Source of the DNA: Bacteroidia bacterium
Lineage (GTDB): Bacteria; Bacteroidota; Bacteroidia; UKL13-3
Length of the DNA stretch: 34,118 nt
Direction: 5' to 3'
Assembly (NCBI GenBank): GCA_025454975.1
Contig: JALONK010000033.1
Coordinates: 1-34,118 of the forward strand
Shown here: in pieces, positions 31,445 through 34,118 of the stretch
How the letters are laid out: every line of letters begins with the position of its first letter
How positions within the stretch are numbered: position 1 is the stretch's first letter
Made by a program: the position numbers and the translations under genes
The notes under the pieces: generated by a model
The model's database searches: none
Told to the model about the DNA's origin: nothing
Seen by the model: the letters and a program-made list of their open reading frames with translations, nothing else

Positions 31445-33439
<1,995 letters not shown>

Positions 33440-33553: not shown

Positions 33554-33705
33554 TAGAATTGATTATCGCACTTGTATTTGTGTGGTTTGATAAAAATTCG
33601 ATTAATCGTATGTTAAGTTTTTAGCATAGTATTAATCATAACTCAAACTAACTACCCTAAATTATAAAAAAAAATCAAGCCATTCAACTACCCCTTAACC
33701 ATACC
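33554..33705. other. AT-rich intergenic spacer without a recognised gene
   Basis: No credible reading frame, RNA gene or promoter pair was found. Near the end TTAACCA (33695-33701) and TGGTTAA (33710-33716) form an inverted repeat straddling the start of the GC-rich repeat. It is not present before the second repeat copy, so it is probably not part of the element. Confidence 0.5.
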
Positions 33706-33811
33706 TAATTGGTTAAACGTGCGGTGGGCATAAACGATTTGGAGCGGACGCCTCGTGCGGGCAGGATCACAAAGGGCAGAGGGGCGGTTGGCCTTGCGCG
33801 TGTTTGTGATG
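33706..33811 (+). repeat. GC-rich direct repeat, copy A (matched part)
   Basis: 106 bases that recur at 34013-34118 in the same orientation, offset by 307, with 6 mismatches (33729, 33748, 33752, 33753, 33776, 33779). About 61 of the 106 bases are G or C by hand count, far above the surrounding DNA. Perfect inverted repeats inside are ATCACAAA (33766-33773) with TTTGTGAT (33803-33810), and AAACGATTT (33732-33740) with AAATCGTTT (33821-33829). The element must extend at least to 33829 and probably to about 33894. Reading frames cross it on both strands but show no domain, and I regard them as non-coding. I recall similar GC-rich sequences scattered in other Bacteroidota genomes. Confidence 0.85.
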
Positions 33812-33839
33812 AAGGGCATTAAATCGTTTGATTTTTGCA

Positions 33840-33860
33840 GTACTTTTTCTAAAAAAGTAC
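33840..33860 (+). repeat. AT-rich hairpin in the distal part of repeat copy A
   Basis: GTACTTTTT (33840-33848) and AAAAAGTAC (33852-33860) form a perfect 9-bp stem with the loop CTA, followed by GAAAGAAAAAAAGAGG. It is not followed by a T run, so it is not a standard terminator on the plus strand. It is probably a structural part of the repeat unit. Confidence 0.6.
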
Positions 33861-33878
33861 GAAAGAAAAAAAGAGGCT

Positions 33879-33894
33879 CGGACGAACGTCCGCT
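33879..33894 (+). repeat. GC palindrome near the presumed end of repeat copy A
   Basis: CGGACGAACGTCCG (33879-33892) can form a 5-bp hairpin with the loop GAAC. Its right half with two more bases, CGTCCGCT (33887-33894), is also the exact complement of AGCGGACG (33743-33750) near the start of the unit. Two alternative pairings therefore exist. Confidence 0.5.
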
Positions 33895-34012
33895 GCACAC
33901 TTGTGATAAAATGTTAAAACGAAATCATACACCGGCACATACGCAGAATAACATTCACCCCAAATACATCACACAACATTCACCACACCAAGCTAAACTT
34001 ATAAACTATGAT

Positions 34013-34118
34013 TAATTGGTTAAACGTGCGGTGGGAATAAACGATTTGGAGCGGCCGCTACGTGCGGGCAGGATCACAAAGGACACAGGGGCGGTTGGCC
34101 TTGCGCGTGTTTGTGATG
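34013..34118 (+). repeat. GC-rich direct repeat, copy B (cut by window end)
   Basis: Second copy of the element at 33706, 100 of 106 positions identical. AAACGATTT (34039-34047), ATCACAAA (34073-34080) and TTTGTGAT (34110-34117) are unchanged. The variable part can form the local hairpin CCGC-TACGT-GCGG (34055-34067), one base pair longer than the equivalent in copy A. The distal half lies beyond the window. Confidence 0.85.

Follow-up and report, generated by a model that had tools for sequence, protein, structure and literature searches.

What is the GC-rich sequence that is repeated downstream of gyrB in this member of the Bacteroidia, and how did it come to be there? The window analysed here, 34,118 nucleotides long, is contig C8 in full, one of the 83 contigs of a 3.44-Mb genome (G000). 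The original prediction described two same-strand copies of a 106-base block, 307 bases apart and 94% identical, and both measures were reproduced. A repeat search of the window returned a direct-repeat pair at 33697-33811 and 34004-34118 (115 nt, spacing 307, 91% identical), and BLAST aligned 34013-34118 to copy 1 with 94% identity over 106 nt. The block is also GC-rich, as had been stated, with a local GC content of 0.59 and 0.51 in copies 1 and 2 and 0.25-0.40 in the surroundings. Besides the 115-nt pair, the 34 kb contain no second direct repeat of 30 nt or longer. The locus is composed of the following features:

31484 to 33439, plus strand: gyrB, adjacent to the array on its left; a 651-aa open reading frame with 80-83% DNA identity to gyrB of sister species.
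33706 to 34012, plus strand: first unit of the array (307 bp), made up of element copy 1 and the spacer; the spacing is 307 and the spacer is found again at C36:1-102.
34013 to 34118, plus strand: array unit 2 with element copy 2, ended by the contig end after P2'; 94% identity and a partial covariance-model match.
33879 to 33892, no strand assigned: a small separate palindrome, CGGACGAACGTCCG, in the array unit but outside the element; read directly, and also present in copy 3.

The contig ends at position 34118, inside copy 2, which is therefore cut, and the spacer 3' of it is not visible. A third copy, 95% identical, is located at G000:C36:103-300. The array spacer recurs directly before copy 3, and the repeated unit is thus the whole ~307 bp of element and spacer. 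Four sister species lack the element at this locus: there, gyrB converges directly on a lolD-like ABC gene, with about 230-300 bp between the two. The lolD-like gene of G000 is on C36, just past copy 3, and together with the synteny of the sister species this places the ends of C8 and C36 on the two sides of a single array of at least three units. The element inserted between gyrB and lolD and was amplified there in tandem as a 307-bp unit, most likely by slippage or unequal recombination. A tandem array also accounts for the contig break at this position. An artefact of assembly or binning is a highly improbable source of copy 2 or of the foreign-looking block. The contig does stop within copy 2, and the 3' half missing from it is near-identical in copies 1 and 3, but several positions differ among the three copies, the spacer was found twice with differences, the array flanks are syntenic with those of sister species, and the element family occurs in many other genomes. 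The region from gyrB to the lolD-like gene also contains a short block, GCCGGTTTTCCCTCCCGAGTATCATGAGGGTTGA, and after it a hairpin that has a run of T; both are kept in sister species (block at G000:C36 (L005) 550-660 and at L294 about 2640-2770). The block on C36 matched no Rfam family; block and hairpin may represent a small RNA or a site of regulation.

Within each array unit lies a non-coding element of about 145 bp. On the plus strand, it consists of a leader GTGCGGTGGG, the nested stems P1 and P2 enclosing an apical segment, the returning arms P2' and P1', a pyrimidine tract, and a T/A-rich tail hairpin, S2. The positions in copy 1 are:

33719 to 33860, plus strand: element core, copy 1 (class I, ~142 bp); end-to-end match to covariance models R1, R2 and R3, with ends set by the sharply bounded copies of genome G118.
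33719 to 33728, plus strand: conserved leader GTGCGGTGGG, at the 5' terminus of the element; G118 copies start alike and their upstream flanks are unrelated.
33732 to 33740, plus strand: P1 5' arm AAACGATTT; covarying helix.
33766 to 33773, plus strand: P2 5' arm ATCACAAA; covarying helix, with 7/8 pairs compensated in an unfitted MAFFT alignment.
33781 to 33800, plus strand: apical segment GGGGCGGTTGGCCTTGCGCG; kept across the genus although the stems vary.
33803 to 33810, plus strand: P2 3' arm TTTGTGAT; covarying helix.
33821 to 33829, plus strand: P1 3' arm AAATCGTTT; covarying helix.
33832 to 33836, plus strand: T tract right after P1, at the third-strand (L1) position of the predicted tail triplex of relatives, where it covaries with the S2 purine arm.
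33840 to 33860, plus strand: tail hairpin S2, GTACTTTTT-CTA-AAAAAGTAC, the 3' end of the element.

The genus form of the apical segment is GGGGCGGTTGG..TTGYGCG. The termini are not inverted copies of each other (5' GTGCGGTGGG, 3' AAAAAGTAAT), and the element has no terminal inverted repeats. A protein-coding reading was rejected: the block has open reading frames of short length, and among relatives it varies by indels and swapped stems, in agreement with the earlier judgement that the frames are spurious. Rfam gave no match at the element positions above chance level, relaxed E-values included.

The stems vary in sequence and keep their pairing. In a MAFFT alignment of nine sequences that was fitted to no model, 7 of 8 P2 pairs showed changes in both partners. 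An alignment of 63 elements gave compensated changes in 17 of 17 pairs of P1 and P2, with 96% paired compared to 38-45% when the arms were slid against each other; since this larger alignment was model-fitted, the nine-sequence one is the cleaner test of covariation. Within the single genome G118, P1 occurs as CCACGCCC/GGGCGTGG, CCACGAAA/TTTCGTGG and CCACGTCC/GGACGTGG, all Watson-Crick paired, and additionally as CCACGCGT/ACGCGTGG. We conclude from these alignments that the predicted fold of the element is under selection. Wobble pairs are rare (19/1016 stem pairs, 1.9%). G.T outnumbers A.C in the stems by 19 to 4, and by 12 to 0 away from helix ends, in counts that are not independent of relatedness; this excess indicates that the plus strand folds as a single strand. 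A rare but G.T-biased wobble fits single-stranded DNA and RNA alike.

Sister species contain one or a few copies of the element each, as found by BLAST; three of these species were matched to the public contigs UBA6183, D4_MAG_00005 and RE-16jun15-135. When 85k genomes were scanned for the loop motif of the genus, the pattern identified only this genus and two chance coding matches, because stems and loop diverge, and covariance models were therefore needed. They were built from sister-species copies in three rounds (R1, R2 and R3). The R2 model was positive in 15 of 147 relatives, and the R3 model in 33 of 295 evenly drawn genomes of the class, from about 20 families; 11 candidates per genome were scored, and class-wide copy counts are thus at-least values. 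Two classes of the element can be distinguished, of which class II (P1 = CCACG... and similar) is the commoner, and the window copies belong to class I. A covariance search of 296 highly complete genomes of the phylum gave no match except in the source genome itself, which doubles as a specificity control. The idea that the repeat is a common dispersed one of Bacteroidota is not supported by these counts. No element match was found in phage and plasmid records or in viral contigs.

Evidence of mobility comes from relatives. A covariance search identified 43 intergenic copies in G118, a complete single-contig genome, and 14 in G129. Forty of the G118 copies were read along with flanks of 800 bp; almost all begin with GTGCGG at the 5' end and stop just past the tail hairpin at the 3' end, and both flanks are unrelated. 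The copies are positioned between genes in every relative orientation, as judged from simple ORF calls. The sharp ends, the unrelated flanks and the 43 intergenic sites show that the element is mobile. In both genomes it has the properties of a MITE in the broad sense, namely many sharp-ended copies at unrelated intergenic sites and no open reading frame. The suggestion that the repeat is dispersed and possibly mobilised thus holds for the family and fails in the source genome, where BLAST and a covariance-model search of the 3.44 Mb detected no copies outside the single tandem array. Occurrence only here in the genome had been named in advance as evidence against a dispersed element; this is literally the situation, yet mobility is evident in relatives.

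The flanks of G118 insertions display no target specificity beyond A/T richness. No shared short flank indicative of a target-site duplication was evident, and the exact 3' end is blurred by the A-rich tail. A lagging-strand orientation bias, which transposition of single-stranded DNA would be expected to produce and which would mark an IS200/IS605-derived element, seemed strong by eye but was not significant once origin and terminus were set independently by GC skew (27/43 copies concordant with GC-skew replichores, p=0.13, origin and terminus roughly placed). A search for tails in G118 returned 35, five of them absent from the list of 43 copies. Two of the five were inspected: L231 is an element with an altered P1 arm, and L239 retains leader and tail with the hairpin between them precisely lost; neither is an autonomous gene-bearing version. 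Neighbouring copies also occur elsewhere, as direct tandems in G333 (331-bp spacing) and G012 (383-bp spacing) and in inverted arrangement in G109 and G132. The G333 pair probably represents two insertions, unlike the array of the window, because its spacer is not repeated. Other small palindromes accompany G118 copies. The palindrome TCCCGACACG(C/T)AGTCGTCGGGA is inserted in the apical loop of L177 and L198, and a similar one is in the tail of L198. A REP-like palindrome, GCCGTCGGCAGACA..CGCCGCAGGCA, is often directly 3' of the element, seems to prefer the tail side, and was recorded beside L176, L182, L184, L188, L189, L192, L193, L195, L196 and L198.

The tail of class II elements is more elaborate than a hairpin. 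Immediately 3' of P1', a run of 3-6 nt is complementary to the first nucleotides in the loop of the tail hairpin and may pair with them as a stem, S1 (TGTC/GACA, GGGC/GCCC, TCTCC/GGAGA, GCGGCC/GGCCGC, TCTGC/GCAGA, TTGAT/ATCAA, and others). S1 of at least 4 bp was found in 29 of 55 elements, compared to a mean of 4.6 and a maximum of 11 in 2000 shuffles, and this pairing was included in none of the covariance models. Pyrimidines make up the tract that separates S1 from S2. In 11 elements this tract contains a C, and in each of the 11 the purine arm of S2 has the facing G. Of the 44 elements without a tract C, 40 lack such a G, three have a G beyond the tract length, and in one the tract was not parsed (Fisher p about 1e-8, relatedness not corrected). 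Examples of tract and purine arm are TTCTTTT // AAGAAAA, TTCTTT // GAAGAAA and TTTTCTTT // AAAGAAA. The parallel register is longer than the antiparallel one in 4/4 cases in which the registers differ outside S1, and these come from three lineages. The 3' end of class II elements is predicted to form an H-type pseudoknot with a U.A-U / C.G-C major-groove triple helix. In the core pseudoknot of telomerase RNA and in other U.A-U triple-helix RNAs, the topology is H-type and a pyrimidine L1 runs parallel to the purine strand. From their sequence, class II tails are predicted to have this topology as well, with an A-T stem whose purine strand is parallel to L1; unlike those RNAs, they belong to a bacterial mobile repeat, of which they form the 3' end. 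The class I copies of the window have T5 parallel to A5 and a 3-nt loop, with no S1 and hence no knot.

Similar tail modules end other repeat bodies in these genomes (24 distinct matches compared to five weak ones in the control). One of these, a second repeat body in the genus (GCAATCC...GGATTGC, AAGTAAGTGCAGTTGTAT...), has a tail pseudoknot alike, with CTTGAA:TTCAAG and CTTGAC:GTCAAG (L059 about 1200-1400, L055 1200-1400, L116 near 1357), and the tail thus resembles a module shared between repeats. In several genus copies, the tail-hairpin loop contains an insertion-like sequence of ~45 bp, AACTCGTTGTTGTTTATTG...GGCCTCGTTGAATT... (L013 about 1430-1500, L055 1460-1510, and the tails of L107, L114, L116 and L118).

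A pseudoknot with a U-tract loop parallel to a purine arm is a classical RNA architecture, and the element could be a structured RNA of 3' untranslated regions. Its stems, joined in class II by the triple-helix pseudoknot, would block 3'-5' exonucleases or stop transcription; copies would be retained for this effect and perhaps spread via an RNA intermediate. The strand bias of the wobble agrees with this, as do the T tract immediately 3' of P1 and the placement of 24 of 39 G118 copies downstream of a co-directional gene, with ten convergent and five divergent sites. However, the figure of 24/39 is not significant alone, the element occupies both orientations, and no T run follows S2 at the element end. 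The leader has no obvious promoter when read by eye, the flanks are unique, wobble pairs are as scarce as given above, and Rfam holds no matching family. We consider an RNA role the strongest rival to the explanation favoured below, possible but doubtful.

An alternative source of mobility is a Y1 (RAYT) transposase, which would make the repeat a REP/REPIN- or IS200/IS605-type element, a Bacteroidota counterpart of the hairpins beside TnpA-REP subclass 2.6 genes. Among published systems, this subclass is the closest lead. The Y1 genes of this subclass in Bacteroidetes are reported with 'atypical secondary structures', hairpins that are copied elsewhere in the genome (PMC6006769), and Y1 genes of such a kind occur in relatives. 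A hairpin near both ends, the lack of terminal inverted repeats and the multi-copy intergenic distribution also fit. Nevertheless, the Y1 genes examined carry short unrelated inverted hairpins or, at the loci tested in element-bearing genomes, have no leader or tail motif nearby. Four carriers of the element, the source genome G000 together with G149, G106 and G310, gave no Y1 match, and the element contains no 20-40-bp unit tagged GTAG/CGTC, the tags of the palindromes described in a REP survey (PMC3733652). We regard mobilisation of this type as unlikely. REP/REPIN sequences with RAYT, subclass 2.6 included, are likewise intergenic, multi-copy, hairpin-forming, non-autonomous DNA; their units measure 20-65 nt, with a GTAG guide and a flanked Y1 gene, whereas the element has neither and adds nested covarying stems and a tail pseudoknot. 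Membership in REP/RAYT was rejected on the grounds that the element is ~145 bp long, starts with GTGCGGTGGG, and has no GTAG/GTGG guide at the foot of a simple palindrome and no cognate flanked Y1 gene. At three RAYT loci of relatives (L063, L073 and L074), Y1 proteins of ~190 aa with NHVH/YIHNNP motifs are encoded between inverted copies of a CCGCTACCGCGCGAATCC..CGCGTGG hairpin; these are apparently complete Bacteroidota REP-RAYT units.

Palindrome-associated elements derived from IS200/IS605 (PATE) have subterminal hairpins at both ends, and the ends are non-inverted. The present element shares these two properties, but its ends match no resident Y1 elements, and Y1 was undetected in several carriers. 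Prokaryotic MITEs, ERIC/RU-1, BOX, Correia and the BrickBuilt repeats of Porphyromonas are similarly short, non-coding, intergenic, mobile and foldable; the element differs from them in having no terminal inverted repeats or recognised target duplication, asymmetric ends, and exceptional stem covariation. A TIR-type MITE was rejected, since the termini are not inverted repeats. The openly searchable literature contained no prior description of the element, and the passages searched in a 2024 MITE review mention Porphyromonas elements and none of the present kind (PMC10969869).

The explanation that we favour, as somewhat better than even, is a non-autonomous, non-coding, MITE-like selfish element that is present here as a short array and is mobilised in trans in the form of one folded strand. 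Single-stranded DNA would be a more likely substrate than RNA because the ends are non-inverted, a hairpin is near each of them, and wobble is rare. A host or helper enzyme would recognise one end by its leader and nested hairpin, and the other by its tail hairpin or pseudoknot. Only copies that still pair would spread. This would account for stems that differ in sequence from one subfamily to the next yet are paired in each, a pattern that suggests that propagation requires folding. No autonomous partner was found. The Y1 genes examined in relatives are not flanked by the element, and this counts against a single-stranded DNA substrate, as do the four carriers with undetected Y1 and the non-significant orientation bias. 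The copies in the window are probably passive, since a Y1 transposase was undetected and the genome has no copies elsewhere. More tentatively, we speculate that the family could represent a new class of mobile element, in which the substrate strand, RNA or single-stranded DNA, is folded and ends in a 3' telomerase-type triple-helix pseudoknot. The tail would then be a portable module of several unrelated Bacteroidota repeat bodies, served in trans by an enzyme.

Small bacterial hairpin repeats usually consist of a simple palindrome or have inverted ends, and their transposase is known or can be guessed. The element described here is a class-wide mobile non-coding family of many lineages, represented mainly by uncultured genomes. 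It is distinguished by very clear covariation, a conserved predicted pseudoknot, and a putative third strand that covaries with the stem. A triple helix as part of a bacterial transposition substrate thereby becomes testable, and the folded strand of ~145 nt provides a concrete bait for finding the enzyme behind the mobility.
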